This document shows, in pieces, positions 18,201-45,759 of a stretch of 64,000 bases of DNA (the stretch's first letter is position 1; each line of letters opens with the position of its first letter). Source of the stretch: Halalkalicoccus sp. CGA53 (lineage in GTDB: Archaea > Halobacteriota > Halobacteria > Halobacteriales > Halalkalicoccaceae); NCBI RefSeq assembly GCF_036429475.1, contig NZ_CP144125.1, forward strand, positions 2,294,001 through 2,358,000, given 5' to 3'. A program made the position numbers and the translations under genes. The notes under the pieces are model-generated. The model did no database searches and was not told the DNA's origin. It was given only the letters and a program-made list of their open reading frames with translations.

Positions 18201-18307
18201 TGATCGCCCCGGGCGGATCGTGTCGGAGCCAGATCGGCGACCGCGACGGGGAGACCGAGAACCCCCCGCACCCGATCGAGATGGTCGAAGCGGTGCTGAC
18301 GCCGTAG
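15239..18307 (+). CDS. fused FAD / Fe-S D-2-hydroxyacid dehydrogenase (GlcD-GlcF or YdiJ type), paralog 1
   Basis: 1022 residues. It oxidises a D-2-hydroxy acid (D-lactate, glycolate or D-2-hydroxyglutarate in known relatives) and passes electrons through iron-sulfur clusters to the respiratory chain. An N-terminal PCMH-type FAD domain (RGAGSSLGGQAVG near 117) is followed by the FAD-oxidase C domain, two ferredoxin-like motifs (CNGCGTCRQ near 614, CVGCKGCKSDCPTGVD near 675), and a C-terminal cysteine-rich domain with HGHCHQK (about 921) and CCGMAGSFGYEAEHY (about 951). The length matches E. coli YdiJ (about 1018). A longer open frame upstream is rejected because a TATA-like box sits 27 nt before ATG 15239. 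The lactate permease follows. Confidence 0.9.
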   Translation: MAVEKPERGRAGQGSTTDTGRSSVIEKPSGGMAEFATLNEELGHDHPDVEEYVDLAADLRDAVAGEVRFDEYAQVLYATDGSIYQARPAGVVHPTDVSDVQAAVRIAADHDVPIIARGAGSSLGGQAVGPGCVVLEMTTYMDGVVELRPEERRAVVQPGVVQDHFDEYASRWGLKFAPDPASSNRATIGGGLGNNSTGAHSVRYGISDAYTEELKVVLADGSLIHTREVVLDGEEWEEIVAKGDREAAIYETIRGLVEENRDEIGEKYPDLKRNVSGYNLQKVIYENREGEEVINLSKLLVGSESTLGVIVEAEISLVTVPEETSLALYCFSDLIEALAAVPEALEFDTSAVELMDAEVFRLARGSEQFAKYEEPIPDGTEAALMLEFDSELHEDLGEPIRRTNAHFVDEGDAFDVLEAYTDEDQADIWKLRKAAIPLLMALEGDPKPYPFIEDATVPPAELAEYVGEFERVLDEHGTSAAYFAHAGSGTLHIRPILNLKDGEGIETMRSISEDVTDLVLERHGSFSGEHGDGLARTQFNPKMYGPALWEAFKEVKTVFDPDWRLNPGKVVYREDDPTDMRENLRYGTEYHSIEPQTKLDFSAEGGFSHLVELCNGCGTCRQTDDVMCPTYRGMKDEIATTRGRANMLRAAISGEIPTEELYSERFQEEVLDLCVGCKGCKSDCPTGVDLAKLKAEVKHGYHEREGSDLRTKLFANIDRLSWLGSRLAPVSNLGPKLPGSRVVMKTVAGIAPDRKLPPFRRESLADWYEKRGPRIDEREADRKVLLFPDTYTNYSYPEPGKAAIRVLEAAGVHVRIPDECGPSGRAAYSVGLLDQAEERARTNVDALGGYVEDGWDVVAIEPSDAVVFQDEYTYLIPGTETERVAESAYGIMEYLDEHRLIDGLVEHDRLMVPTETLSYHGHCHQKSTGKDHHAVGVLARAGYDVDVLDTSCCGMAGSFGYEAEHYDLSKAIAADLFEKIDASEGETVIAPGGSCRSQIGDRDGETENPPHPIEMVEAVLTP

Positions 18308-22474: not shown

Positions 22475-22980
22475 AGCCCCTCCACGAGCAGCACGTCGAC
22501 CGTCTTCGGGCCGTGTGCGCCCCGGACGAGTTCGCCCATGTCGGCGGTCGCGCTCGGTCCCGTCGCGACGATCGCGCTGGCTCTCGCCTCGCCCACCTCC
22601 TCCGAGAGCCGCGAGAACGCCGTCGGGATATCTCGTACTATATCGCTCTCGGCGAGGACGGCGACGTGGTGATCGCAGAAGACGCTCACCTGTTCGCTCC
22701 CGTCTTCGGTGGCGGGCAGCACGAGCGAGCCGTACTCGGCGACCGCGAAGGAGGCGGCGGTCACGCCGGTTACCGCCTCCTCCAGCTCCCGCGGACTCGG
22801 ATCGAGCGTCACCGTCTCCGGGAGGCCGAGTCCCTCGAACGGGAGTCTCGCGCCGACCGCCGGCTCGGAGACCAGCTCGGACAGCGTCGCCTCGAAGCCC
22901 GGGGGATCGGTTCGCGAGAGCCCAACGTCGAGGGCCGCGAGCGAGCGTTCGAACGCCCCCTGCGTGTGTGTCGTTGCCAT
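22471..22980 (-). CDS. LutC/YkgG-type LUD domain protein
   Basis: 169 residues of the LutC (LldG) type, the third part of the L-lactate oxidation complex. Features: VTAASFAVAEYGSLVLPATED near 75-95, HHVAVLAESDIVRDIPTAF near 107 and a late VATGPSATADMGELVRGAHGP. It is upstream of and overlaps the LutB/LutA-type fusion gene on the minus strand, so the pair forms one operon that diverges from the malic enzyme gene. Confidence 0.87.
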   Translation of the reverse strand: MATTHTQGAFERSLAALDVGLSRTDPPGFEATLSELVSEPAVGARLPFEGLGLPETVTLDPSPRELEEAVTGVTAASFAVAEYGSLVLPATEDGSEQVSVFCDHHVAVLAESDIVRDIPTAFSRLSEEVGEARASAIVATGPSATADMGELVRGAHGPKTVDVLLVEGL

Positions 22981-23070
22981 GTCCCCGCCTTAGGGCGGAG
23001 CCGTTTCACTCTTTCTTCGGCGACCGGGGTTCGACGGTCGTCGAATCCGCTTCCCGCTACCGACGACACC

Positions 23071-23078
23071 TTTTTGAG
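23071..23078 (+). promoter_or_regulatory. TATA-like box of the malic enzyme gene
   Basis: TTTTTGAG about 26 nt before ATG 23100. It supports this start over the long in-frame upstream extension. Confidence 0.45.
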
Positions 23079-23099
23079 ACGGGCGGGGCATCTCACGGT

Positions 23100-30847: not shown

Positions 30848-30964
30848 ATGAGCGGTTTGCCAACGGCCGACGAGCCGTCGGTCGCCGTCGTGGCGTCCGA
30901 TCCGGCTGGGGAGAGATGGGCGGCGGTCGAAACGGGACGGAGCGCGGGAGGGTCCGGGAACTGA
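30848..30964 (+). CDS. possible 38-residue upstream ORF coupled to paralog 2
   Basis: Starts MSGLPTADEPSVAVVASD and ends GGSGN. Its TGA shares an A with the ATG of the dehydrogenase (TGATG), the arrangement used for translational coupling. A TATA-like box 26 nt upstream suggests its ATG is the transcript start. The sequence is acidic to neutral and has no known domain. It could be a regulatory leader peptide, or non-coding 5' leader. Confidence 0.35.
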   Translation: MSGLPTADEPSVAVVASDPAGERWAAVETGRSAGGSGN

Positions 30965-33957
30965 TGGCGACGAGCAGAGAGAGGGGAGATCCGGCGACCG
31001 ACGACCGGTCGAACTACGACTACCGGAACGACGAGGTGAACCGGCCGGGGATGGTCCGGGACCTAAAAGGGCTCGTCGAGGGCGACGTCCGCTTCGACGA
31101 GTACACCCGACAGCTCTACGCGACGGACGCGAGCGCGTACGAGGTGACGCCGATCGGCGTCGTCTATCCCAGGTCGACGGAGGACGTCGCCGCAGTCGTC
31201 TCCTACTGCGCCGACCGCGAGATCCCAGTCCTCCCACGCGGCGGCGGGACGAGCCTCGCGGGCCAGGCGGTCAACCGCGCGGTCGTCCTCGACTTCTCGA
31301 GGTATATGACCGACCTGCTCGCGATCGACGGGGAGGAAGGGACCGCCCGGGCACGGAGCGGGATCACCGTCGCCGGGCTGAACCGGGCGATCGAGCACAC
31401 GGGACAGAAGTTCGCGCCCGATCCATCGACGGCCGATCGGAGTGCGCTGGGCGGGGCGATCGGGAACAACACGACCGGGGCACACTCGCTCAAGTACGGG
31501 AAAACCGACGCCTACGTCGAGGAGTGCGAGGCAGTTCTGGCGGACGGCACGGTCACGACGTTCGGCGAGACTCCCCTCTCGGAGATCCGCGAGGGGGCCG
31601 ACCCCGACGGTGACCTGCTCTCGCGGATCTACGCGAACGTCCTCGAGGTGATCGACGATTCTAGTCACCTGATCGAGGAGGCGTATCCCACGCTCAAACG
31701 GAACGTCTCGGGCTACAACCTGGACGTGCTGATCGAGGAGGGACGAGAGGCAGAGCGGGCGATCGAACGGGGCGAGGAGGGGACGGTGAACCTCGCGAAA
31801 CTGCTCGTCGGTAGCGAGGGGACCCTGGCAGTGATCACCGAAGCGAACGTCTCGCTCGAACCGATTCCCGAGACGAAGAGCGTGGCGGTGCTCACCTACG
31901 ACGACCTGCTCTCGGCGATGGAGGACGTCGGAGCGATCTTAGAGCACGACCCCGCCGCCGTGGAGGTGCTCGACGACGTGCTCGTCGACCTCGCGCGGGA
32001 GACGGCCGAGTTCAAAGACGTCGTCGGGCGGCTTCCCGATGGCACCGGCTCGTTCCTGCTCGTCGAGTTCTACGCCGAGGGAGAGGAGGAGGGCAGGGAG
32101 AAGGTGAAGGGCCTGATCGAGGATCGCGTAGGCGAGATCGCGTTCGACTCGCTCGAAGCTTACGGGAAGGAAGAGCGGAAGGATCTCTGGACGATGCGGA
32201 AGGCGTCGACGCCGATCCTGCTCGGGAGAACGGGGAAAGAGAAACACATCGCGTTCATCGAGGACATCGCGATCCCGCCCGAGCACCTCCCCGAGTACGT
32301 CGCGGAGTTCCAGGCGGTGATGGAAGAGGCGGGGACGTTCGGGAGCTTCTACGCCCACGCGGGCCCTGGTTGTCTGCACGTCCGGCCGCTGATCAATACA
32401 CATTCTATCGAGGGGATCGAGGCGATGTACGAGATCTCGGACGGGGCGACCGACCTCGCCGTGAAGTACGGCGGGTCGGTCTCGGGCGAGCACGGCGACG
32501 GCCGGGCGCGCACCCAGTGGAACCGGAAACTCTACGGCGAGGAGGTGTTCGGCCTATTCAAGGAACTGAAGACGGCGTTCGACCCCGACTGGCTGCTCAA
32601 CCCGGGAATGGTCTGTGGCGACGTCTCGATGACCGAGAACCTCCGCTTCGACCTGGAGGACGTCTTCGACGCCGGGTTCGAGCCTGCGCTCAACTGGGAG
32701 AACGAGAACGGGTTCAGAGGAATGGTCGAGCTCTGCCACGGCTGTGGCGGCTGCCGGACGAGTCAGGCGGGAACCGGCGGCGTGATGTGCCCGACCTACC
32801 GCGCAGCGGAGGAAGAGATCACCTCGACGCGTGGTCGGGCGAACATGCTCCGGCAGGCGATGACGGGGGCGTTCACCGAAGAGGAGATCTTCGAGGAGGA
32901 GTTCCTCCACGAGGTGCTCGATCTCTGTGTCGGCTGCAAGGGCTGTGCGAAGAACTGCCCGAGCGAGGTCGACCTCGCGAAGCTGAAAGTCGAGGTCGAA
33001 CACGCCGCCCACGAGCGAAACGGGATCGGCCTTCGGACCAGACTGTTCGCGAACATCGACCGGCTCTCGGCGCTCGGGAGCGCGCTCGCACCGCTCTCGA
33101 ACCTGGGGACGAAATTCCCTGGTTCGCGGCTGGTGATGGAGAGGACGATCGGCATCGCGCGGGATCGCTCACTCCCGGAGTTCTACCGCGAGTCGCTCGA
33201 AGACTGGTTCGAGGACCGGGGTGGATCGACGGTGGCGGAGAGCGAGGCGGATCGGAACGTCGTGCTGTTCCCTGACGCGTACACGAACTACAGCAACCCC
33301 GGTGCGGGAAAGGCCGCGGTGCGGGTGCTCGAGGCCGCGGGCGTCCACGTCGCGATTCCCGAGGGTGTGACCGGTTCCGGCAGACCGCCACACTCGAAAG
33401 GGGTGCTCGAGAAGGCGCGCTCGCACGCGCGACGGAACGTCGACGCCCTGGTCCCGGAAGTCGAGGCTGGCTGGGACGTGGTGATCGTCGAGCCCTCGGA
33501 CGCAGTGATGTTCCAGTCCGATTACCTCGACCTGCTCTCGGGCGAGGACGTCGAACGAGTGGCGCGAAACACCTACGGCGTGATGGAGTACCTCGACGCG
33601 TTCCGGCTGGACGAGACGCTCTCGTTCGGGGAGGTGGACGAACACCTCACGTACCACGGCCACTGCCACCAGAAGGCGACGGCGAAAGACCACCACGCGG
33701 TGGGCGTGCTCCGCAGAGCGGGCTACCGGGTCGACCCGCTCGACAGCACCTGCTGCGGGATGGCCGGCTCCTTTGGATACGAGGCCGAACACTACGCGAT
33801 GAGCCAGGCGATCGGGTCGATCCTCTTCTCGCAGATCGACGGGAGCGAGGGCGAATCGGTCGTCGCACCCGGCGCGTCCTGTCGGACCCAGATCGGCGAC
33901 GAGTTCGGCGAGAAACCGCCCCACCCGATCGAGAAACTGGAAGCGAGTCTCGCGTAG
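30964..33957 (+). CDS. fused FAD / Fe-S D-2-hydroxyacid dehydrogenase, paralog 2
   Basis: 997 residues with the same layout as paralog 1: PCMH FAD domain (LPRGGGTSLAGQAVN near 97), FAD-oxidase C domain, clusters CHGCGGCRTSQ (near 592) and CVGCKGCAKNCPSEVD (near 655), and C-terminal HGHCHQKATAKDHH and CCGMAGSFGYEAEHYAMSQ. It is much closer to paralog 3 than to paralog 1; several DNA patches are identical to paralog 3. The start MATSRERG was chosen because it matches the paralog 3 start and overlaps the upstream ORF; an ATG at 30916 is the alternative. It lies between two CoA-transferase genes, so its product may be handed to CoA chemistry. Substrate unknown. Confidence 0.88.
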   Translation: MATSRERGDPATDDRSNYDYRNDEVNRPGMVRDLKGLVEGDVRFDEYTRQLYATDASAYEVTPIGVVYPRSTEDVAAVVSYCADREIPVLPRGGGTSLAGQAVNRAVVLDFSRYMTDLLAIDGEEGTARARSGITVAGLNRAIEHTGQKFAPDPSTADRSALGGAIGNNTTGAHSLKYGKTDAYVEECEAVLADGTVTTFGETPLSEIREGADPDGDLLSRIYANVLEVIDDSSHLIEEAYPTLKRNVSGYNLDVLIEEGREAERAIERGEEGTVNLAKLLVGSEGTLAVITEANVSLEPIPETKSVAVLTYDDLLSAMEDVGAILEHDPAAVEVLDDVLVDLARETAEFKDVVGRLPDGTGSFLLVEFYAEGEEEGREKVKGLIEDRVGEIAFDSLEAYGKEERKDLWTMRKASTPILLGRTGKEKHIAFIEDIAIPPEHLPEYVAEFQAVMEEAGTFGSFYAHAGPGCLHVRPLINTHSIEGIEAMYEISDGATDLAVKYGGSVSGEHGDGRARTQWNRKLYGEEVFGLFKELKTAFDPDWLLNPGMVCGDVSMTENLRFDLEDVFDAGFEPALNWENENGFRGMVELCHGCGGCRTSQAGTGGVMCPTYRAAEEEITSTRGRANMLRQAMTGAFTEEEIFEEEFLHEVLDLCVGCKGCAKNCPSEVDLAKLKVEVEHAAHERNGIGLRTRLFANIDRLSALGSALAPLSNLGTKFPGSRLVMERTIGIARDRSLPEFYRESLEDWFEDRGGSTVAESEADRNVVLFPDAYTNYSNPGAGKAAVRVLEAAGVHVAIPEGVTGSGRPPHSKGVLEKARSHARRNVDALVPEVEAGWDVVIVEPSDAVMFQSDYLDLLSGEDVERVARNTYGVMEYLDAFRLDETLSFGEVDEHLTYHGHCHQKATAKDHHAVGVLRRAGYRVDPLDSTCCGMAGSFGYEAEHYAMSQAIGSILFSQIDGSEGESVVAPGASCRTQIGDEFGEKPPHPIEKLEASLA
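31111..31166 (+). repeat. 56-base identity tract shared with paralog 3 (42862-42917)
   Basis: The DNA is identical over 56 bases, including third codon positions, while the flanks differ at many silent sites. It encodes the QLYATDASAYEVTPIGVV segment. Confidence 0.8.
31504..31562 (+). repeat. 59-base identity tract shared with paralog 3 (43255-43313)
   Basis: Identical DNA encoding TDAYVEECEAVLADGTVTT, bounded by silent differences on both sides. Confidence 0.8.
32465..32603 (+). repeat. 139-base identity tract shared with paralog 3 (44285-44423)
   Basis: The longest identical patch between the two genes. It covers the conserved GGSVSGEHGDGRARTQW region and the following LFKELKTAFDPDWLLNP segment. 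No silent change occurs in 139 bases. Confidence 0.85.
33757..33830 (+). repeat. 74-base identity tract shared with paralog 3 (45565-45638)
   Basis: Identical DNA for GMAGSFGYEAEHYAMSQAIG and following residues. The codons just before it (Cys-Cys) already differ silently. Confidence 0.8.
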
Positions 33958-33975
33958 TCCTGCCCGAAGGCAGTT

Positions 33976-35214
33976 TCACTCGCCGAACGCGCCGCCCTCT
34001 CGCCACGCCGAGAGCGTCGTCTGCTCGCCTGCCACCTCGGAGAACACCTCGTCGGTGTGCTCGCCGAGGCGTGGAGCGGGGCTCCGAACGACGTCCTCGA
34101 ACCCGGGGAAGTTGATCGGGTGGCCGGGGAGGAGGAGTTCTCCGGCGTCCGGGTCGGTGTGTTCGATCACGAGGTCTCGTGCGGCGGTCTGTTCGTGTTC
34201 GACGACGTCCGCGACGTCGTTGATCGGCCCACACGGAAAGCCCGCCTCGGTGAGGACCGAGAGCCAGTGTTCCGCCGACTCCTCCTCGAGTCGATCCTGG
34301 ATCGCACCCACGACTGTCTCGGCGTTCGCCATCCGCTCTCTGTTCGTCTCGAACTCCCTGACCGACTCACACCCCACCACGTCGACGAATGCGTCCCAGC
34401 GAGCGTCGCTCGGCACGCCCGTGACGATCGACTTCGTCCCGGTCTCGAACACCTGGTACGGGACGAGCGCCTGGTGGCTCCGTCCCTGCGGGCCGGGCAC
34501 CTCGCCGGTCAACGAGTAGTTCGTCAGGTACTCGTTCAGCAGCGTGACGATGGCGTCGAACAGGCCAACGTCGAGCTTGCCGACGAACTCCCTCTCGTCG
34601 TTCGTCCCGTCGTTCTCACCCTCACCGGACCCCACCCGCCCGCGTTCGTGGAGCCGGGCGAGCACGCCGATCGTCGCGAACATCCCCGCAGTCAGGTCGC
34701 CGACGGCCTGTCCCACCTTCACCGGCTCGCCCCCCTCCGGACCGGTGACGCTCATGATCCCGCCCTCGGCCTGGAGGATGAGGTCGAGCCCGGGTTTCTC
34801 TCGCATCGGGCCGGTCTCGCCGTAGCCCTTGACGCTCGCGTAGACGAGCTCCGGGTTCAGCTCTTTCAGATCGTCGTAGCCGATGCCGAGTTTGTCGGTG
34901 ACGCCGTAGCCGAAGTTCTCGACGAAGACGTCGGCGTCGGCGAGTAGCGCACGGGCCGCCTCTACACCGGCGTCGCTCTTGAGGTCGAGCGTGACCGACT
35001 CCTTGTTTCGGTTGAGCGCGACGAAGTAGCCGGTCTTGCCGTCCTGGCCGACGCCCTGGACCCTGACTGGGTCGCCGACGCCCGGCCGTTCGATCTTGAT
35101 CACGCGCGCGCCCATGTCCGCGAGCAGCGCCCCGCAGAACGGGCCGGCGCGGTGGGCGGTCATCTCGACGACGGTGAGTTCCGAGAGCGGTCCCTCAGTA
35201 TCGGTCTCGGGCAT
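33976..35214 (-). CDS. class III CoA-transferase (CaiB/BaiF family), copy 2
   Basis: 412 residues. The fold start is LTVVEMTAHRAGPFCGALLA with ARVIKIERPG; catalytic Asp is D144 (KPGLDLILQAEGG). A Gly/Glu-rich loop near 200-225 is a halophile-type insertion. Identity to copy 1 is low, so it is not a recent duplicate. The upstream crotonase gene ends 2 bases before its start, so the two form an operon: CoA transfer to an acid and hydration or isomerisation of the CoA ester, like the CaiB/CaiD pair. It converges with paralog 2 (18-base gap). A 22-residue upstream extension is rejected. Confidence 0.86.
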   Translation of the reverse strand: MPETDTEGPLSELTVVEMTAHRAGPFCGALLADMGARVIKIERPGVGDPVRVQGVGQDGKTGYFVALNRNKESVTLDLKSDAGVEAARALLADADVFVENFGYGVTDKLGIGYDDLKELNPELVYASVKGYGETGPMREKPGLDLILQAEGGIMSVTGPEGGEPVKVGQAVGDLTAGMFATIGVLARLHERGRVGSGEGENDGTNDEREFVGKLDVGLFDAIVTLLNEYLTNYSLTGEVPGPQGRSHQALVPYQVFETGTKSIVTGVPSDARWDAFVDVVGCESVREFETNRERMANAETVVGAIQDRLEEESAEHWLSVLTEAGFPCGPINDVADVVEHEQTAARDLVIEHTDPDAGELLLPGHPINFPGFEDVVRSPAPRLGEHTDEVFSEVAGEQTTLSAWREGGAFGE

Positions 35215-35216
35215 GG

Positions 35217-35999
35217 TCACTCGCCCTCGTTGAACTCGTCGACCAGCCGGCGGCGTTCCTCGCCCGCGAACTGCTCCCACCAGAGGTCCGCCTCGTACTC
35301 GCGGGCGGTCTCGGCGTCGGGTGCTTCGACTGCGTAGTTGATCGCCTCTTTCGAGTTCTTCACCGCCTCGCGACCGGTATCCTGGATCGCGTCGATTATC
35401 TCCTGGACCGTCCCGTCCAGTTCCTCTCTGGGCACGGCGTGGTTGATCAGACCGATCCGTTCGGCCTCGGCGGCGTCGATGAACCCAGCGGTCAGCACGA
35501 GTTCCTTCGCTTTCGCCTCACCCACTAACTCGACCGCTCTCCGGTTAGCACCACCGGTCGGGATCTGACCGATGTTGGCGACGGGGACGCCGAACTTGGC
35601 GTCCTCGGTCGCAACGCGCATGTCACAGTACATCGCGGTGATCAGCCCGCCGCCGACGCAGTAGCCGTTTACCTTCGCGATCACGGGCGCGTGACAGTGA
35701 AGCGGTTTCTGGTACATCTCGTAGAACAGTTCCTGACGGTCGCGCTGGTGGGCGTGTTCGTCCGTCGTTCCGGCGTACTCGGTGATGTCCGCACCGGCGG
35801 AGAAGGCGTCGTCGCCCTCGCCGGTGATCACGACGGCGTCGATCGAACGGTCGAGCGCGATGGCGTCGAACGCCCTGCGCAGGTCGAGCATGACGTCGTC
35901 GTTGAGCGCGTTGTACTTCTCGGGGCGGTGGAACTCGATGGTCGCGACGCCGTCGGCGATCTCGACGCTGAGGCTGGCGTACGCGTCGTGGCGTACCAT
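35217..35999 (-). CDS. enoyl-CoA hydratase/isomerase family protein (crotonase)
   Basis: 260 residues. Oxyanion-hole motifs are AFSAGADI (about 65) and NGYCVGGGL (about 107). Of the two catalytic glutamates of classical enoyl-CoA hydratase, the second is present (KAKELVLT, about 168), but the first, in the FGxPE motif, is replaced (FGVPVANIG, about 142). Such single-Glu members are often isomerases or have other reactions, so simple hydration should not be assumed. It is the first gene of an operon with CoA-transferase copy 2. A TATA-like box lies 27 nt upstream. Confidence 0.87.
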   Translation of the reverse strand: MVRHDAYASLSVEIADGVATIEFHRPEKYNALNDDVMLDLRRAFDAIALDRSIDAVVITGEGDDAFSAGADITEYAGTTDEHAHQRDRQELFYEMYQKPLHCHAPVIAKVNGYCVGGGLITAMYCDMRVATEDAKFGVPVANIGQIPTGGANRRAVELVGEAKAKELVLTAGFIDAAEAERIGLINHAVPREELDGTVQEIIDAIQDTGREAVKNSKEAINYAVEAPDAETAREYEADLWWEQFAGEERRRLVDEFNEGE

Positions 36000-36020
36000 G
36001 GCGCCGATCGACGGGGTACG

Positions 36021-36030
36021 AGCAAAAAGC
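36021..36030 (-). promoter_or_regulatory. TATA-like box of the crotonase/CoA-transferase operon
   Basis: Minus-strand GCTTTTTGCT centred 27 nt before ATG 35999. Confidence 0.45.
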
Positions 36031-36067
36031 TTCCCTCGTTGCTCGAGTGCCTGCCGCGGTCCGTGGC

Positions 36068-36073
36068 TTTATC
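36068..36073 (+). promoter_or_regulatory. TATA-like box of the malate/tartrate dehydrogenase-type gene
   Basis: TTTATC about 27 nt before ATG 36097; a leaderless start is likely. Confidence 0.45.
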
Positions 36074-36096
36074 GCCCCCATCGCCGTTCGTAACCC

Positions 36097-37146
36097 ATGG
36101 CATACGAGGTAGCGACGATCCCAGGCGACGGTATCGGCCCCGAGGTCGTGGACGCGACGCTCCCGCTGTTCGAGTCGGTCGCCGATAGCCACGGGGTGGA
36201 CGTAGAGTTCGAGCGCTTCGAGTGGGGCTCCGATCGGTATCTGGACGAGGGTGCGATGATGCCCGAGGACGCGCTCGACACCCTGGAGAGCTACGACTCG
36301 ATCCTGCTGGGTGCGGTCGGGCACCCGGAGGTGCCGGATCACCTCACGCTCCACGGACTGCTGTTACCGATCAGAAAGAGCTTCGATCAGCGGGTCTGCA
36401 AGCGCCCGTCCGTGCTCTTCGAGGGCGTCGAGAGCCCGTTGCGGGGCTACGAGGGCGGCGACGTCGACTTCGTGGTCTTCCGCGAGAACACGGAAGGGGA
36501 GTACTCCGACGTGGGTGGGCGCGAACACGTCGGGTTCGCCCACGAGGTGGCGATCCAGACCTCGGTGTTCACCCGCGAGGGGACCGAGTCGATTCTCAGG
36601 GCCGCGTTCGAGGAGGCCGGCGAGCGCGAGGGCCACGTGACGTCGATCACGAAGTCGAACGCCCAGGCCTACAGCATGACGTTCTGGGACGATCTGGTCG
36701 AAGAAATCTCGACGGAGTACCCCGGGATCGAGGTCGAGAGGCTGCTGGTCGACGCGGCGTCGATGGACCTGATCCGTCGGCCCGAGGAGTTCGACGTGAT
36801 CGTCGCCTCGAACCTCTTCGGGGACATCCTCACGGACATCGGTGCGATCGTCACGGGGAGCATGGGACTCGCCCCGTCGGGCAACATCGACCCGTCGGGG
36901 AGCTACCCCTCGATGTTCGAGCCGGTGCACGGGAGCGCCCCGGACATCGTGGGCGAGGGTATTGCGAACCCGCTCGCGACGGTGCTCTCTGCGTCGATGC
37001 TGTTCGAGGACCTGGGCGAGGAGGCGGTCGCGGAGGAGCTCTGGGCGCGCGTCGAGTCGGTGCTCGCCGACGAATCCGCGCCGCTCACGCCCGACCTCGG
37101 TGGGTCCGCGGGAACGGAGGACGTCGTCGAGGCGCTCTCGGACTAG
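36097..37146 (+). CDS. D-malate / tartrate dehydrogenase-type isocitrate-isopropylmalate family enzyme
   Basis: 349 residues. The protein aligns well by eye with E. coli DmlA: IPGDGIGPEVVDAT, GAVGHPEVPDHLTLHGLLLP (about 70), FDQRVCKRPSVLFEGV, VVFRENTEGEYSDVGGR (about 130), TKSNAQAYSMTFWDD and ASNLFGDILTDIGA (about 233). The GHP-x-VPDH segment and the early REN motif distinguish the D-malate/tartrate group from LeuB, but isopropylmalate activity cannot be fully excluded. It would oxidatively decarboxylate D-malate to pyruvate. The stop overlaps the stop of the convergent stress protein gene within one CTAG. Confidence 0.8.
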   Translation: MAYEVATIPGDGIGPEVVDATLPLFESVADSHGVDVEFERFEWGSDRYLDEGAMMPEDALDTLESYDSILLGAVGHPEVPDHLTLHGLLLPIRKSFDQRVCKRPSVLFEGVESPLRGYEGGDVDFVVFRENTEGEYSDVGGREHVGFAHEVAIQTSVFTREGTESILRAAFEEAGEREGHVTSITKSNAQAYSMTFWDDLVEEISTEYPGIEVERLLVDAASMDLIRRPEEFDVIVASNLFGDILTDIGAIVTGSMGLAPSGNIDPSGSYPSMFEPVHGSAPDIVGEGIANPLATVLSASMLFEDLGEEAVAEELWARVESVLADESAPLTPDLGGSAGTEDVVEALSD

Positions 37147-37571
37147 TCGAGCCTGACGGAGACAACGGGGCACGGGGCGTCGAGTAACATGGACTGAACG
37201 ACGCTCCCGAACAGCGCCTTCCCGACCGGCGACCGCTTCCGACCCGCGATGACGAGGTACTCGGCCTCGTGCTCGTCGGCGTAGGTGACGACCTCCTCCG
37301 CGGGGTCGCCCATCAGCCCGACCGCGGTGGCGTCCGCGTGCGCCTCCTCGGCCGCTCTCCGGGCCACCGCGGTCGCCCCCTCGATCACGTCCTCCATCGG
37401 GACCGGTCCGTTCGACCGGGTGACGCTCGTCTGTTCGAGTTCGACGAACCCCTCCCTCGTGAGGACGTGGATGACGTGGACGGGGAGCTCCATGGCCGCC
37501 CCGAGACGGGCGGCCTCCTCGACGATCGGTCCGGCACGCTCGCTCTCGTCGACCGCTGCGACGATCGGCAT
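37143..37571 (-). CDS. universal stress protein, UspA family
   Basis: 142 residues, single domain: start MPIVAAVDESERAGPIVEEA, HVIHVLTREGF (about 33), and the nucleotide-binding tail VIAGRKRSPVGKALFGSVVQ (about 106-125), the G-x2-G-x9-G-S/T motif of ATP-binding members. The start is supported by a TATA-like box 27 nt upstream. Confidence 0.92.
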   Translation of the reverse strand: MPIVAAVDESERAGPIVEEAARLGAAMELPVHVIHVLTREGFVELEQTSVTRSNGPVPMEDVIEGATAVARRAAEEAHADATAVGLMGDPAEEVVTYADEHEAEYLVIAGRKRSPVGKALFGSVVQSMLLDAPCPVVSVRLD

Positions 37572-37593
37572 ACGTCCGTATCGGTTCCCACCC

Positions 37594-37603
37594 GATATAT
37601 AGC
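37594..37603 (-). promoter_or_regulatory. TATA box of the universal stress protein gene
   Basis: Minus-strand GCTATATATC centred 27 nt before ATG 37571, one of the clearest boxes in the window. Confidence 0.6.
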
Positions 37604-37656
37604 TGTAGACCGGCGCGGGGGCGAGGCTTTAGGTTCCCGGCCCGCGCGGGTCGGGT

Positions 37657-38796
37657 ATGTCCGTTCGAACCGTCGAGGCGATCCCGCTCCATCGCGAGCT
37701 CGACACGCGATTCGCGAACGCACAGAAGTGGATCGACAGCCGTGAGTACTGCCTCGTCCGGATCGAGACCGGCGACGGGCTGGTCGGCTGGGGCGAGTGC
37801 TGGGGGCCGATCGCCGGCAACCGGGAGCTGGTCGAGGAGTACGTCGCACCCCGGATCGAGGGCGACGATTCCACGGCCGTCGAACGGCTCCACGAGGAGC
37901 TCGTCTTCGCGCTCCGCTCGTCGTACCACTCCTACGTTCCCGCGAGCGTCGTCAGCGGCGTCGACATGGCGCTCTGGGACCTCTACGGGAAGTCGGTCGG
38001 GGCGTCGGTCTCCCGGCTGCTGGGTGGGCGGCGCCGGGAGGAGGTCCGCGCGTACGCGACGGGGCACTTCTTCGGAGACGTCGAGAGGTTCGAGGAGCTC
38101 GAGGAGGCGGTCGTGCGCGAGGCCGAGGGTCACGTCGCGGCGGGCTTCTCCGCGCTCAAGAACAAGATCGGGCTCTCGCGGCACTTCCCGGGGTGGGGGA
38201 TGGAGGAGGACGTCGCGCTCGTCCGTGCGATCCGGGAGGCCGTCGGCCCGGACGTGCGGCTGATGACCGACGCGAACCACGGCTACGACCGGGCCGACGC
38301 GATGCGGGTCTCGCGTGCGCTCGCCGACCTCGACGTCTACTTCTTCGAGGAGCCGCTGCCGCCGGAGGATCTCGTGGGGTACGCGGCGCTCAACCGAGGA
38401 CCGACGCCGATCGCCGGCGGGGAGTCCTGGGCCTTCCTCCACGAGTTCGAGCGGGTACTCTCGGCGAACGCCGCGAGCTACGTCCAGCCGGACCTGACGA
38501 GCGTCGGCGGGTTCACCTCGGCACGGAGGGTGGCGGCCGCCGCGGGCGCCGCGAACGTCGGCTGTCTCCCGCACGTCTTCGGGAGCGCGGTCGCACTGGC
38601 CGCGAGCCTCCAGCTGCTCGCGACGCTCTCCGGCGAGCCGATGCTCGAGTTCGACCGGACGCCGAACCCGATCCGCGACGACCTCGCGATCGATCCCGTG
38701 GAGAACGACGGGCCGACCGTCGCGATCCCGGACCGACCGGGGATCGGCGTCGAGATCGACGAGCGGGTGCTCTCGCGCTTTCGCGCCGACCGGTAA
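37657..38796 (+). CDS. mandelate racemase/muconate lactonizing enzyme family (enolase superfamily) dehydratase-like
   Basis: 379 residues. A capping domain (1-130) precedes the barrel. Visible: KNKIG with a Lys-x-Lys pair (about 168-170), metal ligands Asp in TDANHGY (about 207), Glu in FEEPL (about 232) and Glu in GGES (about 258), and His in PHVFGS (about 307). This Lys plus His set is typical of racemases and acid-sugar dehydratases of the MR group. It precedes a tripartite tricarboxylate transporter operon in the same direction, so a sugar acid or hydroxy diacid is the probable substrate. It is clearly different from DgoD. Confidence 0.83.
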   Translation: MSVRTVEAIPLHRELDTRFANAQKWIDSREYCLVRIETGDGLVGWGECWGPIAGNRELVEEYVAPRIEGDDSTAVERLHEELVFALRSSYHSYVPASVVSGVDMALWDLYGKSVGASVSRLLGGRRREEVRAYATGHFFGDVERFEELEEAVVREAEGHVAAGFSALKNKIGLSRHFPGWGMEEDVALVRAIREAVGPDVRLMTDANHGYDRADAMRVSRALADLDVYFFEEPLPPEDLVGYAALNRGPTPIAGGESWAFLHEFERVLSANAASYVQPDLTSVGGFTSARRVAAAAGAANVGCLPHVFGSAVALAASLQLLATLSGEPMLEFDRTPNPIRDDLAIDPVENDGPTVAIPDRPGIGVEIDERVLSRFRADR

Positions 38797-38846
38797 CCGC
38801 CGGAACTAGACCGTCCGCCGTCGGTTCTACAACCCGCGAAGAAAAC

Positions 38847-38858
38847 TATTATATATAT
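38847..38858 (+). promoter_or_regulatory. TATA box of the tripartite transporter operon
   Basis: TATTATATATAT about 100 nt before ATG 38956, implying a 5' leader of roughly 75 nt rather than a leaderless start. The operator-like repeat follows 4 bases downstream. Confidence 0.55.
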
Positions 38859-38862
38859 CGCC

Positions 38863-38880
38863 ACCACATCGTCATGTGGT
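38863..38880. promoter_or_regulatory. perfect inverted repeat ACCACAT-CGTC-ATGTGGT
   Basis: Seven-base arms with a 4-base spacer directly after the TATA box and over the expected transcription start, the usual site of an archaeal repressor operator. Its core CCACA-N6-TGTGG is the same as at 15127-15142. Confidence 0.6.
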
Positions 38881-38955
38881 ATCAGCCCACGGTACGGAAC
38901 CACCACCAGGTCAGTCGATCTGGCCGGGCAGAGAAGACCCCGAACGGGGACCACT

Positions 38956-40044
38956 ATGGCACGGGAACACATCCGACACGGCGGCGGGGAACAGACAACG
39001 ACCAACACCGGAGCCGGGGGCGTTCGCAGACGGCGATTCCTCCAGGCGGCGGGGGCGACGTCGGTCGCTGCGATGGCGGGCTGTCTCGCCGGCGACAACG
39101 GGGACGACGAGGGGGACTGGGAGCCGAGCGAACGGATGCGCTACATCGTCCCGTACGACGAGGGCGGCGGAACCGACGTCTACGCCCGCGGTATCATCGA
39201 GCCGCTCACGGACGCGATGGGACAGGACATCCAGATCGACAACGTCCCGGGCGGTGGCGGACTGAACGGCTTCGGCGACGCGATCGGTGCCGAACCGGAC
39301 GGACACACGTTCACGGGAAGCGCGGTGCCGCTCGAGGTGACGCCACAGCTGCTCGACGACCCCGGGTTCGACCAGCGCGACCTGCGCGGGGTCGGCAACA
39401 TCGGCCGGTCGACCTGGTGTCTCATCGTCAACGAGGAGTACGAGGGCGAGGTCGAGACGTTCGACGACGTCAGGGAGATGCACAACTCCGGGGAGTGGAC
39501 GACGATCGGCATCCAGGAGCCCGGCAGCCCGCAGGACATAATGACGCTGCTGGCGAAAGAGGAGCCGGAGTACGCCGACGAGTACGACTGGAACTGGACG
39601 GATCGCGTGCAGTACACCGGGACGGGACCGATCGCCGAGGCGGTGACCTCGGGCGAGGTTCCCTGTGGGATCGGGACCGACGCCGGCACGGAGCCGAACG
39701 TCTCCTCCGGCGGGGTCTACCCCGTCGTCTGCTTCTTCAGCGATGGGACCGACGTCTACCCCGACATCCCGTCGGTCACCGACGAGGGCTACCCGGAGAT
39801 GGACTTCATCGCCGGTGTGACCCGTGGGATCTACGCACCGCCGGACGTCTCCGACGACCGGATCGAGGTGCTCGCAGAGCGCTTCGAGGAGGCGACCGAG
39901 GACGAACGGTACGAGGAGTGGTCGAACGACACCGGCAACCCGATCTTCTGGGAGGGCCCCGAGGAGGCCGAGGCCGCGATGAACGACCCGTTCGAGGTGA
40001 TGGAGGAGCTCGAGATCGTCGAACTCATTCAGGAACACCAATAA
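38956..40044 (+). CDS. tripartite tricarboxylate transporter substrate-binding protein, TctC/Bug family
   Basis: 362 residues. A Tat lipoprotein signal (RRRRFLQAAG at 24-33, lipobox Cys 43 in MAGC) is followed by the Bug fold: MRYIVPYDEGGGTDVYARGI (the first substrate-loop motif), INVPGGGGLNGF-like text near 97-104, and a late GIYAPPDVSDDRIEVLAERF. It captures a carboxylate for TctA/TctB. First gene of the three-gene operon; the upstream dehydratase gene suggests the ligand. Confidence 0.92.
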   Translation: MAREHIRHGGGEQTTTNTGAGGVRRRRFLQAAGATSVAAMAGCLAGDNGDDEGDWEPSERMRYIVPYDEGGGTDVYARGIIEPLTDAMGQDIQIDNVPGGGGLNGFGDAIGAEPDGHTFTGSAVPLEVTPQLLDDPGFDQRDLRGVGNIGRSTWCLIVNEEYEGEVETFDDVREMHNSGEWTTIGIQEPGSPQDIMTLLAKEEPEYADEYDWNWTDRVQYTGTGPIAEAVTSGEVPCGIGTDAGTEPNVSSGGVYPVVCFFSDGTDVYPDIPSVTDEGYPEMDFIAGVTRGIYAPPDVSDDRIEVLAERFEEATEDERYEEWSNDTGNPIFWEGPEEAEAAMNDPFEVMEELEIVELIQEHQ

Positions 40045-40071
40045 GGGCTCTCGGATCTCCACTTATCAGGG

Positions 40072-40695
40072 ATGAACGTACAAGAACTCAGGGAGAAGGT
40101 CACCGCCGAGCAGGTCATGCTCGCGGTCCTGCTCGTGTTGAGCGGGGTGTTCTTCGTGGAGCCGATCGTCCAGGAGTACCCGGACGACGCCCGGGTGTTC
40201 CCCCAGATGACCTCCGCCGCGGTCTTCATCGGCTGTTTCCTGCTGCTCGTCCAGAACTACCTGCCCGGGCCGGTCCGGAAGTTCGTCGCAGAGAGCGTGA
40301 GCATCACCTCGACGCCGATGGAGGAGGAAGAAGACGAGGAGGACGAGGACGACGAGGAGTTCGTGAAGGAGACGCTCGGTCGCGACTACGGTTACGAGGT
40401 GAACGACACCGTGTTCATGGTGGGGACCTCGACGCTGTATCTCGTGCTGGGGTGGGCCGTGGGCCTGCTGTTCGTCACCTTCCCGTTCGTGCTGGCGTAC
40501 ATGCTCTGGTTCAAGGTCCGCTGGCCCATCGCCGTCGTCTGCGGGGTCGCCGCGACGGCGATCATCTACCTGTTCCGGGTGTTCCTCCTCCTGCGGCTCG
40601 ACCGGGGTGCGATCCTCGACTTCAGCCCGTTCGTCCCCACCTCGATCGACCTGCCGCTCGCGTTCGCGCTCGCGACGGTCGCGGGGGTCGCGTAG
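40072..40695 (+). CDS. tripartite tricarboxylate transporter small permease, TctB family
   Basis: 207 residues with four hydrophobic segments. A highly acidic soluble loop of about 20 residues (near 83-103) lies between segments 2 and 3 and is a halophile feature. The early YPDDARVFPQMTSAAVFIG text matches the TctB N-terminal motif (P-x-x-FP). The stop TAG is directly followed by the TctA ATG. Confidence 0.88.
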   Translation: MNVQELREKVTAEQVMLAVLLVLSGVFFVEPIVQEYPDDARVFPQMTSAAVFIGCFLLLVQNYLPGPVRKFVAESVSITSTPMEEEEDEEDEDDEEFVKETLGRDYGYEVNDTVFMVGTSTLYLVLGWAVGLLFVTFPFVLAYMLWFKVRWPIAVVCGVAATAIIYLFRVFLLLRLDRGAILDFSPFVPTSIDLPLAFALATVAGVA

Positions 40696-42192
40696 ATGGC
40701 GGTCGACGCCTTCTTCGAGGGGCTCGCGCTCGCCGCGAGCTGGCCCGTGATCGGGTGGATGGCGCTCGGGCTCGTCCTCGGGATCGTCCTCGGGGCGCTG
40801 CCGGGGATCGGCTCGCCGGTCGGGATGGCGCTCGTACTGCCGCTGACGCTGCCGCTCGATGCGACCTCGGCGATCGTGCTGCTCGTGGCGATCTACAGCG
40901 GGGCGATGTTCGGCGGCTCGATCGCCGCGATCCTGATCAACGCGCCCGGCACCGAGTCCGCGGCGGCGACGACGCTCGACGGCTACCCGATGGCGAAAAA
41001 CGGCCTCGCGAAGAACGCGCTCGCGATCGCGACGACGGCCTCCGCGTTGAACGGCTTCCTCGCGGCGCTCGCGCTGATCCTGCTCTCGCCGGTGCTGATC
41101 GAGGTCGTCCTCGCGTTCGGCTCGCCGGAGTACTTCCTGCTCGCGATCCTCGGTATCTCGCTGATAACGATCGTCACGCAGGGCTCGATCGTGAAGGGGC
41201 TCGTCGCCGGCGCGCTCGGCTTCATGATCTCGACGATCGGCACCGCGATCCTCACCGCGCGCCCGCGGTATACGTTCGGACAGTTCGGCCTCTACGACGG
41301 GATCGACTTCGTCGCGGCGCTGATCGGGATGTTCGCGTTCGCGGAGATGATGAAGCTCGCGGCGAAGAAACAGATCTCCGCCGAGAACATCGAACTCGCT
41401 GGGAGCGTCCGCGAGGGCGTGATGGCGGTGTTCAACCACCCGAAGACGACGCTCAAGTCGGGGCTGATCGGGATGGGGATCGGCATGGTCCCCGGCTCGG
41501 GCGCGACCACCTCGACGTTCGTCGCCTACGCCGAGGAGGCGCGTTCGTCGGCGAAGGACGGCCGGTTCGGTGAGGGCGACCCGCGAGGAGTGATCGCCCC
41601 CGAGGCGGCGAACAACCCGACGGTGAGCGGGTCGCTCATCCCGACGCTCTCGTTCGGGATCCCCGGCAGCGGGAGCACCGCGGTGTTGCTCGGCGGGATC
41701 CTCATGCACGGGCTCCAGCCGGGTCCCGTGCTCTTCGACGAACAGCTGCACATCACCTACGCGCTGTTCGTCTCACTCTTCCTGGGGAACGTGCTGATCC
41801 TGGCGATCGGCCTGACGGTGATCCCGTACGCGAGTAAGATCACCGAACTGGACACGAACGTCATCATCCCGCTCGTCGTCGTGCTCTCCTTTGCGGGCGC
41901 GTTCACGCTGAACCAGAACTGGTTCGACGTGCTCGCGGTCCTGTTGCTGGGCGTGCTCGGCTTCTACATGGTCCGGTACAACTACTCGGTGATCGCGTTC
42001 GTGCTGGGGATCGTCCTCGGGCCGATCGCCGAGGAGAACTTCTTCCGGTCGCTGCAGATCTCCGGCGGGGACTACGCCATCTTCGTCAACCCGATCGACC
42101 GGCCGCTCTCGTTTCTGCTCTCGGTCACGATCTTCCTCGTGCTGTTCGGGCCGTTCATCAAGGCCCGGTTCGACCGCGAGCGTTCCGGCTGA
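40696..42192 (+). CDS. tripartite tricarboxylate transporter large permease, TctA family
   Basis: 498 residues, about 12 membrane segments. Family motifs: LGALPGIGSPVGMALVLPLT (about 34-53), ATTLDGYPMAKNGLAKNAL, FGQFGLYDGIDF, MVPGSGATTSTFVAYAEEAR (about 262-281) and TLSFGIPGSGSTAVLLGG (about 318). It carries the substrate across the membrane with a cation gradient. The start codon abuts the TctB stop. Confidence 0.94.
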   Translation: MAVDAFFEGLALAASWPVIGWMALGLVLGIVLGALPGIGSPVGMALVLPLTLPLDATSAIVLLVAIYSGAMFGGSIAAILINAPGTESAAATTLDGYPMAKNGLAKNALAIATTASALNGFLAALALILLSPVLIEVVLAFGSPEYFLLAILGISLITIVTQGSIVKGLVAGALGFMISTIGTAILTARPRYTFGQFGLYDGIDFVAALIGMFAFAEMMKLAAKKQISAENIELAGSVREGVMAVFNHPKTTLKSGLIGMGIGMVPGSGATTSTFVAYAEEARSSAKDGRFGEGDPRGVIAPEAANNPTVSGSLIPTLSFGIPGSGSTAVLLGGILMHGLQPGPVLFDEQLHITYALFVSLFLGNVLILAIGLTVIPYASKITELDTNVIIPLVVVLSFAGAFTLNQNWFDVLAVLLLGVLGFYMVRYNYSVIAFVLGIVLGPIAEENFFRSLQISGGDYAIFVNPIDRPLSFLLSVTIFLVLFGPFIKARFDRERSG

Positions 42193-42234
42193 TCGTTCCG
42201 GAAGAGTGAGGCGCCCGGACGCCCTTTCTCGCCC

Positions 42235-42663
42235 ATGGCAGAGGGCTACCGACGCGTCTCGCTCGACGAGGTGGGGACGAACCCGGAGAAACCCGGCTCG
42301 CGCTGGGAGCTGTCGAGCGCACTGGGAGTCGACGCGTTCAACCTGAACGTCGCGGTCCTCGAGGCGGGGGAACGACTCTCGCAGAACCAGTTTCACTACC
42401 ACGAGAACCAGCAAGAGGCCTTTTACGTCGCGGAGGGGCGCTGTCGCGTCGAAGCCAGGGAGGAGGGGTTCGAGTTGGAGACGACGGACACCGTCGCCTT
42501 CGAGGCGGGAGAAGTCGGGACGCACGTGATCTACAACCCGTTCGAGGAGCCGTGCCGACTGGTGGGGATCGGCTGGCCGCCTGAGGGGCGACACCCGGTC
42601 CACCAGGTCGAGACGGTCGACGCGCTGCTCGAAGAGCGTTACGGGAAGGAGGGGCCGTCGTAG
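42235..42663 (+). CDS. cupin domain protein
   Basis: 142 residues, a single beta-barrel. The first metal motif is seen in SQNQFHYHENQQEAFYVAEGRC (H57 and H59, with E64 following) and the second in a region near FEAGEVGTHVIYNP (H101). It could be a small isomerase, epimerase or regulator. Its place between the transporter and the third fused dehydrogenase suggests a role with the same substrate; the function is not known. Confidence 0.82.
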   Translation: MAEGYRRVSLDEVGTNPEKPGSRWELSSALGVDAFNLNVAVLEAGERLSQNQFHYHENQQEAFYVAEGRCRVEAREEGFELETTDTVAFEAGEVGTHVIYNPFEEPCRLVGIGWPPEGRHPVHQVETVDALLEERYGKEGPS

Positions 42664-42685
42664 TCCGATCGAGAGGGGATAAGCG

Positions 42686-42699
42686 CCACAGTAATGTGG
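42686..42699. promoter_or_regulatory. inverted repeat CCACA-N4-TGTGG before paralog 3
   Basis: It lies 22-35 bases before ATG 42721, in the region expected to hold the promoter. It has the same arms as the repeats at 15127 and 38863, but a spacer of four instead of six. Confidence 0.4.
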
Positions 42700-42720
42700 G
42701 ACCTCCCGTAGGTGTGTGTA

Positions 42721-45700
42721 ATGGCGACGGAACACACCGGGCCGGCGGCGGACGATCGCTCGGGCTACGACTACCGCACCGGCTCCGAGACGATCCCGGC
42801 GGGGCTCGCGGGGCTCTCGGACCTCGTCGCGGGCGACGTCCGCTTCGACGAGTACTCGAAACAGCTCTACGCGACGGACGCGAGCGCGTACGAGGTGACG
42901 CCGATCGGCGTCGTCTACCCCACTTCGACGACCGACGTCGCGACGGTGATGCGCCACTGCGCGGAGCACGAAATCCCAGTGATGCCCCGTGGAGGCGGGA
43001 CGAGCCTCGCGGGCCAGGCGACGAACGAGGCGGTCGTCCTGGACTTCACCCGATACATGACGGAGGTCTTCGCGATCGATCCGGACGAGCGAACCGCCAG
43101 CGCCGAGGTCGGCGTCTACCTCGGCGACCTGAACGCCGAGTGTGCGCCCCACGGACTGAAGTTCGCGCCCGATCCCGCCTGGGGCGACAAGAGCGCGCTG
43201 GGCGGGGCGATCGGGAACAACTCGACCGGCGCGCACTCGCTCGTCTACGAAAAGACCGACGCCTACGTCGAGGAGTGCGAGGCAGTTCTGGCGGACGGCA
43301 CGGTCACGACGTTTGGGGAGATCACGCTCTCGGAACTCCGCGACCGGGCCGATCCGGACGGCGATCTCGAGGGCCGGATCCACGCGATCGTCGCCGAAGT
43401 GGTCGACGAGCACGCCGAAACCGTCGAGGAGGCCTACCCGGACCTGACGCGGAACGTCTCGGGCTACAACCTCGACTGGATCGTCGAGGAGGCGATGGAG
43501 GCGAAACGGGCGATCGAGGAGGGCGAGGCGGACGACGTAGAGGGGACGATCAACCTCGCTCGACTGCTCGCCGGCAGCGAGGGCACCCTCGCGATCGTCA
43601 CCGAGGCGACCGTCTCGCTGGTCGAGGTGCCGGAGACCAAGGCGGTCGCGCTGTTGACCTACCCCGATTTGCTCTCGGCAATGCGCGACGTCGCGCCGAT
43701 CCTCGAACACGGCCCCGCCGCCGTGGAGGCGATGGACGACGTCCTCCTGGATCTGGCGAGACAGACCGAGGAGTTCGGCCCCGTCGTCGGGATGCTGCCG
43801 GAGGGTACAGATTCGGTGCTGCTCGTCGAGTTCTACGCCGACTCCGTCGAGGAGGGCAAGGAGAAGGTCGCAGACCTGCTCGTCGATCGGGTCCCCAGCG
43901 TCGAGAGCGAGGTAGAGCCGAGCGAGGGTGCGGCCGAGACCACCGACGCGCCGGTCGAGGCGACGACCGCGATGGAGGCCTACGACGCGGCGAAGCGCGC
44001 GCAGTTCTGGAAGATGCGAAAGAGCGGGCTGCCGATCCTGCTCTCGCGCACGAGCGACGAGAAACACATCGCGTTCATCGAGGACACGGCGATCCCGGCC
44101 GAACACCTCCCGGCGTTCGTCGAGGGGTTCGAGGAGATCCTCGAGGCAGAGGGGACGTTCGCGACGTACTACGCCCACGCCGGACCCGGCGTGCTCCACA
44201 TCCGGCCGCTGATCAACACCAAGACGGAGGGGGGACTCGCCTCGTTCGAGGCGATCGCCGACGGCGTCACGGACCTCGTCGTCGAGTACGGCGGGTCGGT
44301 CTCGGGCGAGCACGGCGACGGCCGGGCGCGCACCCAGTGGAACCGGAAACTCTACGGCGAGGAGGTGTTCGGCCTATTCAAGGAACTGAAGACGGCGTTC
44401 GACCCCGACTGGCTGCTCAACCCCGGACAGGTCTGCGGCGATATTTCGATGACCGAGAACCTCCGCTTCGATCCGGCCTACGAGTTCGAGACGGGGTTTG
44501 AACCCGTGCTGAACTGGGAGAACGAGAACGGCTTTCAGGGGATGGTCGAGCTCTGTCACGGCTGTGGCGGCTGCCGGGGTCCCCAGCACACCACGGGCGG
44601 TGTGATGTGTCCGACGTTCCGAGCGGCCGAGGAGGAGATCACGTCCACCCGGGGGAGAGCGAACATGCTCCGCCAGGCGATGAGCGGCGACCTCCCGGAC
44701 GAGCAGTTCAGTGACGAGTTCATAACGGAAGTACTTGACCTCTGCATCGGCTGTAAGGGCTGTAAGATCGACTGTCCGAGCGGGGTGGACATGGCGAAGC
44801 TGAAGGCGGAGGTGACCCACGAGTACCACCGCCGGGAGGGTGCTGAGGCTCGATCGAAGCTGTTCGCGAACTTCGATCGGCTCGCGCCGCTCGCGAGCGC
44901 AACCGCGCCGGTGTCGAACCTCCTCTCGTCGCTTCCCGGGTCGGGGTTGCTCGCCGAGAAGACGATGGGGATCGCACGGGAGCGCTCGCTCCCCGAGTTC
45001 CAGCGCGAGACGCTCCGCGACTGGTTCGAGGCGCGCGACGGGTCGTCGGTTCCCGAGGACGGGGCGGACCGCCGCGCGCTGCTCGTCCCGGACACCTACA
45101 CGAACCACGTCCACCCGGAGGTCGGACGGGCGGCGGTCCGCGTCCTGGAGAACGCGGGCGTCCACGTCTCGCTCCCCGAGGAGGTCGGCGACAGCGGCCG
45201 CGCGGCGTTCTCGAAGGGCTTTCTCGACGAGGCAGGAACGCTCGCGACCGAGAACGTGACGGCGCTCGCCCCGCGGATCGAGGAGGGGTGGGACGTCGTC
45301 GTCGTCGAGCCCTCCGACGCGGTGATGTTCCAATCCGATTACCGTGACCTGCTCTCGGGCCGGTTCGTCGATCTGGTGAGCGAGAACACCTACGGCGTGA
45401 TGGAGTACGTGGACGCGTTCGGGCTCGACGTGCCGGATGGGAGCGGCGAGCGGCTCACCTACCACGGCCACTGCCACCAGAAGGCGACCGCGAAGGACCA
45501 CCACACCGCGGCCGTCCTCACGAGGGCCGGCTTCGAGGTGGACGTCCTCGACAGCGGCTGTTGTGGGATGGCCGGCTCCTTTGGATACGAGGCCGAACAC
45601 TACGCGATGAGCCAGGCGATCGGGTCGATCCTCTTCTCACAGATCGACCGGAGCGGCGGGCGCGTCGTCGCCCCCGGGACCTCCTGTCGGACCCAGATCG

Positions 45701-45759
45701 GCGACGAGTACGGCGAGGAGCCCCCACACCCGGTCGAGCTGCTGGCCGAGTCGCTCTGA
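42721..45759 (+). CDS. fused FAD / Fe-S D-2-hydroxyacid dehydrogenase, paralog 3
   Basis: 1012 residues, same domain order as paralogs 1 and 2. FAD domain MPRGGGTSLAGQATN (near 88), cluster motifs CHGCGGCRGPQ (near 612) and CIGCKGCKIDCPSGVD (near 676), C-terminal HGHCHQKATAKDHH and CCGMAGSFGYEAEHYAMSQ. It has an insertion near residues 395-415 (an acidic Glu/Thr-rich stretch around SVESEVEPSEG) that paralog 2 lacks. Four DNA patches are identical to paralog 2. The next gene, an acyl-CoA synthetase, starts 46 bases later. Substrate unknown. Confidence 0.88.
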   Translation: MATEHTGPAADDRSGYDYRTGSETIPAGLAGLSDLVAGDVRFDEYSKQLYATDASAYEVTPIGVVYPTSTTDVATVMRHCAEHEIPVMPRGGGTSLAGQATNEAVVLDFTRYMTEVFAIDPDERTASAEVGVYLGDLNAECAPHGLKFAPDPAWGDKSALGGAIGNNSTGAHSLVYEKTDAYVEECEAVLADGTVTTFGEITLSELRDRADPDGDLEGRIHAIVAEVVDEHAETVEEAYPDLTRNVSGYNLDWIVEEAMEAKRAIEEGEADDVEGTINLARLLAGSEGTLAIVTEATVSLVEVPETKAVALLTYPDLLSAMRDVAPILEHGPAAVEAMDDVLLDLARQTEEFGPVVGMLPEGTDSVLLVEFYADSVEEGKEKVADLLVDRVPSVESEVEPSEGAAETTDAPVEATTAMEAYDAAKRAQFWKMRKSGLPILLSRTSDEKHIAFIEDTAIPAEHLPAFVEGFEEILEAEGTFATYYAHAGPGVLHIRPLINTKTEGGLASFEAIADGVTDLVVEYGGSVSGEHGDGRARTQWNRKLYGEEVFGLFKELKTAFDPDWLLNPGQVCGDISMTENLRFDPAYEFETGFEPVLNWENENGFQGMVELCHGCGGCRGPQHTTGGVMCPTFRAAEEEITSTRGRANMLRQAMSGDLPDEQFSDEFITEVLDLCIGCKGCKIDCPSGVDMAKLKAEVTHEYHRREGAEARSKLFANFDRLAPLASATAPVSNLLSSLPGSGLLAEKTMGIARERSLPEFQRETLRDWFEARDGSSVPEDGADRRALLVPDTYTNHVHPEVGRAAVRVLENAGVHVSLPEEVGDSGRAAFSKGFLDEAGTLATENVTALAPRIEEGWDVVVVEPSDAVMFQSDYRDLLSGRFVDLVSENTYGVMEYVDAFGLDVPDGSGERLTYHGHCHQKATAKDHHTAAVLTRAGFEVDVLDSGCCGMAGSFGYEAEHYAMSQAIGSILFSQIDRSGGRVVAPGTSCRTQIGDEYGEEPPHPVELLAESL

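Follow-up and report, generated by a model that had tools for sequence, protein, structure and literature searches.

The window analysed here, a stretch of 64,000 nucleotides from the chromosome of Halalkalicoccus sp. CGA53, contains three related dehydrogenase genes on its forward strand, hereafter p1, p2 and p3 (Table 1), of which p2 and p3 correspond to paralogs 2 and 3 of the initial annotation. The annotation had proposed that p2 and p3 are joined by tracts of gene conversion.

Two fused dehydrogenase genes and their identical patches

p2 and p3 lie as direct repeats approximately 11.8 kb apart on the chromosome. Each gene encodes a single chain in which FAD_binding_4, FAD-oxidase_C, 4Fe-4S dicluster and CCG cysteine-rich domains are fused (Pfam), i.e. 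the domain make-up of the FAD/Fe-S 2-hydroxyacid dehydrogenase fusions (GlcD-GlcF or YdiJ-like). The model for the D-2-hydroxyglutarate dehydrogenase YdiJ (NF049975) matched them with 523 and 501 bits, under its equivalog cut-off of 1350, and all matches to the GlcD and GlpC models (NCBIfam) were also below cut-off. The closest solved structures by sequence are glycolate oxidase and lactate dehydrogenases, with the match restricted to the FAD part. A 2-hydroxyacid is the likely substrate of both enzymes, as predicted from their sequences.

The two proteins differ at 31.5% of their residues (68.5% amino acid identity) and 28% of the codons for a shared residue differ between the genes, so that silent sites outside the patches described below have diverged, as had been claimed at the outset. 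The third and more distant paralog, p1, has 53% amino acid identity to p2 and 50% to p3 and served as an internal control; its longest exact run with either gene is 25 bp and it has no tracts in common with them. Every family of long direct repeats that a search of the entire window detected fell within p1, p2 and p3. The open reading frame at 22383-25352 was rejected as paralog 1, being a malic enzyme-phosphotransacetylase (Pfam), and the true p1 is the gene listed in Table 1. A separate gene in the neighbourhood of p1-p3 (20279-21370, minus strand) shares 44% identity with residues 666-1008 of p2, its Fe-S/CCG half.

Four patches of p2 and p3 are identical base for base. Those of 139, 74 and 59 bp were found exactly where the initial annotation had placed them, while for the fourth, originally given as 56 bp, the identity held but the length did not, with one more base on the left bringing it to 57 bp.

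Table 1. Coordinates of the three paralogs and of the identical patches of p2 and p3 (positions in the window).
Feature	Position	Strand	Details
p1	15362..18298	+	third, more distant paralog; internal control
p2	30916..33957	+	likely start 30964; recipient gene
p3	42712..45759	+	likely start 42721; inferred donor gene
57-bp patch, p2 (probable tract)	31110..31166	+	start of FAD-binding domain; exact
57-bp counterpart, p3	42861..42917	+	exact
59-bp patch, p2 (probable tract)	31504..31562	+	FAD-binding domain; exact
59-bp counterpart, p3	43255..43313	+	exact
139-bp conversion tract, p2	32465..32603	+	SGEHGDG...KTAFDPDWLLNP, end of FAD-oxidase C domain; exact
139-bp counterpart, p3 (donor copy)	44285..44423	+	exact
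74-bp conversion tract, p2	33757..33830	+	CCG domain, GMAGSFGYEAEHYAMSQAIGSILFS; exact
74-bp counterpart, p3	45565..45638	+	exact

Chance, constraint and silent divergence

A conserved protein combined with a GC-rich codon bias might yield identity between p2 and p3 without any exchange, and p1, which is an old paralog without exchange, still uses the same codon as p2 or p3 in around 65% of cases. As a control we paired p2 and p3 genes from different genomes, such pairs being under equal protein constraint and similar codon bias and having had no recent within-genome exchange. The control set consisted of 3069 cross-genome pairs of less than 80% amino acid identity, mutually non-independent, drawn from 26 genes of the focal family of genomes and 55 genes of 27 further genomes. 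The longest exact run in these pairs was 65 bp and the third longest was at most 44 bp, compared with 139, 74, 59 and 57 bp in the focal genome, and the 12 control pairs that included one focal-genome gene had longest runs of only 26-36 bp. The fraction of identical codons was 0.721 for p2 and p3 within the genome vs 0.617-0.679 in its cross-genome pairs, and dropped to 0.674 when the tracts were left out.

When codon pairs were permuted within each class of amino acid (20000 shuffles), no run was longer than 96 bp (P ≤ 5e-5 for the 139-bp tract), and the 74-bp tract reached P = 0.005 once the 139-bp tract had been taken out. The 59- and 57-bp patches are singly unexceptional, with P of about 0.07 in the shuffle test and control pairs reaching 65 bp, and each might have arisen by chance; yet as the second and third longest of the runs left after removal of the 139-bp tract, all three being at least 57 bp, they are jointly improbable (P ≤ 1e-4).

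Silent differences were entirely absent from the four tracts (in gene order 0/18, 0/19, 0/43 and 0/22), whereas the pooled cross-genome controls differed at 37%, 33%, 36% and 30% of silent codons at these positions, amounting to 152/417 vs 0/43 for the 139-bp tract. Along the rest of the genes silent divergence is roughly 0.3-0.5 over most of the length, and the tracts are more alike both than their flanks and than protein or codon constraint permits. The uneven profile and the absence of the patches from cross-genome pairs, which differ at 30-37% of these silent codons, are what the initial annotation had anticipated for conversion. Chance with constraint is refuted for the 139-bp tract, and as an account of p2 and p3 as a whole we consider it highly improbable. 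Given the contrast between single-run and joint probabilities, the 139- and 74-bp tracts stand alone, the former as a decisive and the latter as a well-supported case of conversion, whereas the 59- and 57-bp patches are convincing only jointly, as members of the set.

A DNA or RNA signal, or an overlapping reading frame, could likewise fix the nucleotide sequence of both copies, and would fit the identical third positions and the antisense open reading frames that overlap p2 and p3, as is usual at 67% G+C. Such constraint is excluded because about 17-54% of the silent codons at these positions are different in the sister-genus p2 and p3 and even in the congeneric p3 genes (within the 139-bp tract, the congeneric p3 genes differ from the focal p3 at 7/40 and 10/40 silent codons), leaving this explanation with almost no probability.

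A further stretch of p2 (33532-33606) shows 0/16 silent differences from its p3 counterpart, compared with 41% in controls (P = 2e-4, uncorrected), while the encoded protein differs; it may be the eroded remnant of an older tract. In the sister genus, runs shared by p2 and p3 of one genome reach 62 bp and were suggestive by shuffling, but we do not claim conversion there since the cross-genome controls also gave raised rank P values.

Age of the duplication and direction of transfer

Both p2 and p3 have their own orthologs in the sister genus (G003-G009), where they occur together at similar spacing, with p1 close by in most genomes. Orthologs of p2 were found in six of these genomes (72-73% amino acid identity, same gene order), and p3 orthologs are 68-73% identical in the sister genus and 91-92% identical in two congeneric metagenome-assembled genomes (L012 and L013). 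In G003 and G004 the order of a TPP enzyme, a CaiB-type CoA transferase, p2, a tartrate dehydrogenase-like gene, further genes and p3 is conserved, and the p2-p3 interval of 11-13 kb has been retained, as expected of events without crossover. This conserved order of both copies implies that the duplication predates the split of the genera. Between G004 and G009, p1 shows 93% protein identity but p2 only 83% (L100, L097, L110 and L109), which suggests that the paralogs of these two genomes have different histories, with a transferred copy having taken over in one of them.

p2 is nearer to the sister-genus p2 (73% amino acid identity) than to its own p3 (69%). Outside the tracts, it groups with the sister-genus p2 genes (support 78, not starred), and a grouping of p2 with the congeneric p3 genes is rejected (p-AU 4e-7). 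The tree of the 139-bp tract conflicts with this in the opposite direction: focal p2 and p3 are each other's closest relatives (96/88) and nest together with the two congeneric p3 genes, and the test rejects a clade of p2 genes (p-AU 0.007). Few branches of this tree are starred because the tract is short. In the local tree of the 74-bp tract p2 also falls with the congeneric p3 genes, although the case against a p2 clade is weaker than for the 139-bp tract (p-AU 0.09). A recent duplication of the whole gene, with rapid subsequent divergence beyond the patches, would account for p2 and p3 being more alike in both residues and codons than the cross-genome p2/p3 pairs of the focal genome, but is refuted by the syntenic orthologs of both copies and by the tree outside the tracts, and we give it practically no credence. 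The preference of the initial annotation for conversion over such a duplication is borne out by the same synteny and by the significant conflict between local trees.

The residues of the 139-bp tract indicate which copy was the donor. The motif EVFxLFxEL is limited to the p3 genes of the focal genus and to the focal p2, and every sister-genus p2 and p3 reads HLWxVFRDL; p3 has therefore retained the residues typical of its genus and p2 has gained them, in a non-reciprocal manner. The tract tree and these residues show that in the 139-bp tract a portion of p2 was overwritten by p3, after the split from the known congeners. Neither p2 nor the N-terminal half of p3 was found in the two congeneric metagenome-assembled genomes (61-70% complete), which carry part of p3, and the event is accordingly dated via p3 alone.

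Taken together, we are confident that the patches arose by ectopic, non-crossover gene conversion after divergence from the known congeners, from p3 to p2 in the 139-bp tract and presumably in the same direction in the shorter ones, as read from the sequences. The mechanism is an ordinary one, and the case is well demonstrated. Judging from where the tracts lie, blocks held similar by protein conservation are the probable starting points of recombination, which probably halts where divergence rises, giving patches of about 60-140 bp, presumably by strand invasion of the RadA type. The tracts would be short either because the copies have diverged or because only the core of each event is detectable. 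Donor and recipient could have shared one chromosome copy, been carried by sister copies in a polyploid cell or involved DNA of a mated conspecific, and polyploidy may help conversion.

As a variant of this conversion, the source of the tracts might have been a p3 from a different cell of the species or population, acquired through mating or DNA uptake. Haloarchaea exchange DNA between cells, and a near-identical conspecific p3 would leave an identical trace. Recombination between species has also been discussed (PMC8223754). However, the tract sequence is identical to that of the resident p3, an extra step would be required and no data demand a foreign donor; we therefore regard another cell as an unlikely source, and conversion from the resident p3 as the preferred one.

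Candidate conversion in other haloarchaea and comparison with known systems

Among about 34 genomes with at least two copies of the dehydrogenase family, within-genome runs exceeding all controls were detected in three others, namely G019 (151 and 108 bp; L192/L193), G034 (134 bp; L194/L195) and G070 (87 bp; L166/L167). Both G034 copies carry the same 14-residue insertion within the tract, and at its position the only other filled row (G130_c) has a different sequence. Tract positions vary between these genomes and the focal one, consistent with what had been predicted for conversion. We consider these tracts strong candidates for independent conversion on sequence grounds, and since the paralogs involved lie on different contigs in all three genomes, nearness would not be needed. 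Haladaptatus pallidirubidus carries three full-length relatives of p2 on one chromosome (L063, L064 and L070), two of them equal in length and in identity to the query; this pair may stem from recent duplication or from conversion.

It is quite conceivable, if short of probable, that haloarchaea repeatedly exchange tracts of 60-150 bp between paralogs of approximately 70% amino acid identity, even across contigs or replicons, thereby homogenising an enzyme family's conserved active-site blocks within each genome while the rest diverges. If true, the similarity barrier would be low and paralog phylogenies would mislead across haloarchaea. The dehydrogenase family is widespread, and because several haloarchaeal genomes show candidate conversion in it, its trees and ortholog calls may be mosaics. 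p2 and p3 preserve a clear natural trace of ectopic conversion in a pair of highly diverged metabolic genes, with the donor, the recipient and the relative age all resolved, and the tract lengths set a limit on homeologous recombination in haloarchaea that can be tested.

Paralogs of bacteria and of methanogens are well known to undergo conversion, and copying this short between haloarchaeal genes this diverged is little described: our search of the open literature yielded allelic or methanogen cases only and no report on conversion of haloarchaeal metabolic paralogs, although this does not prove its absence. Ectopic conversion, or partial concerted evolution, of coding paralogs is exemplified by tuf of Salmonella and nifH of Rhizobium (cited in PMC8223754). 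p2 and p3 resemble them in the non-reciprocal copying of a gene segment from one paralog to another within the genome, resulting in a mosaic, but differ in that tuf and nif exist as nearly identical copies and remain so, while p2 and p3 are 69% identical in amino acids and only short conserved blocks have been homogenised. Long-lasting concerted evolution in archaea has been described for mtrA (PMC4632066) and for seven methanogen genes (PMC6053082), likewise with conversion between old archaeal duplicates; the archaeal genes reported are all from methanogens (PMC6053082), whereas p2 and p3 encode a haloarchaeal catabolic dehydrogenase and their homogenisation is patchy, not gene-wide. The nearest parallel by organism is the intermolecular gene conversion between genome copies of Haloferax volcanii (PMC8223754, PMC11276520), also a haloarchaeon, in which allelic conversion is very frequent and tracts range from over 600 bp to several kb (PMC8223754); in contrast, p2 and p3 are non-allelic loci, for which conversion is rare on the evolutionary scale and visible tracts span 57-139 bp.
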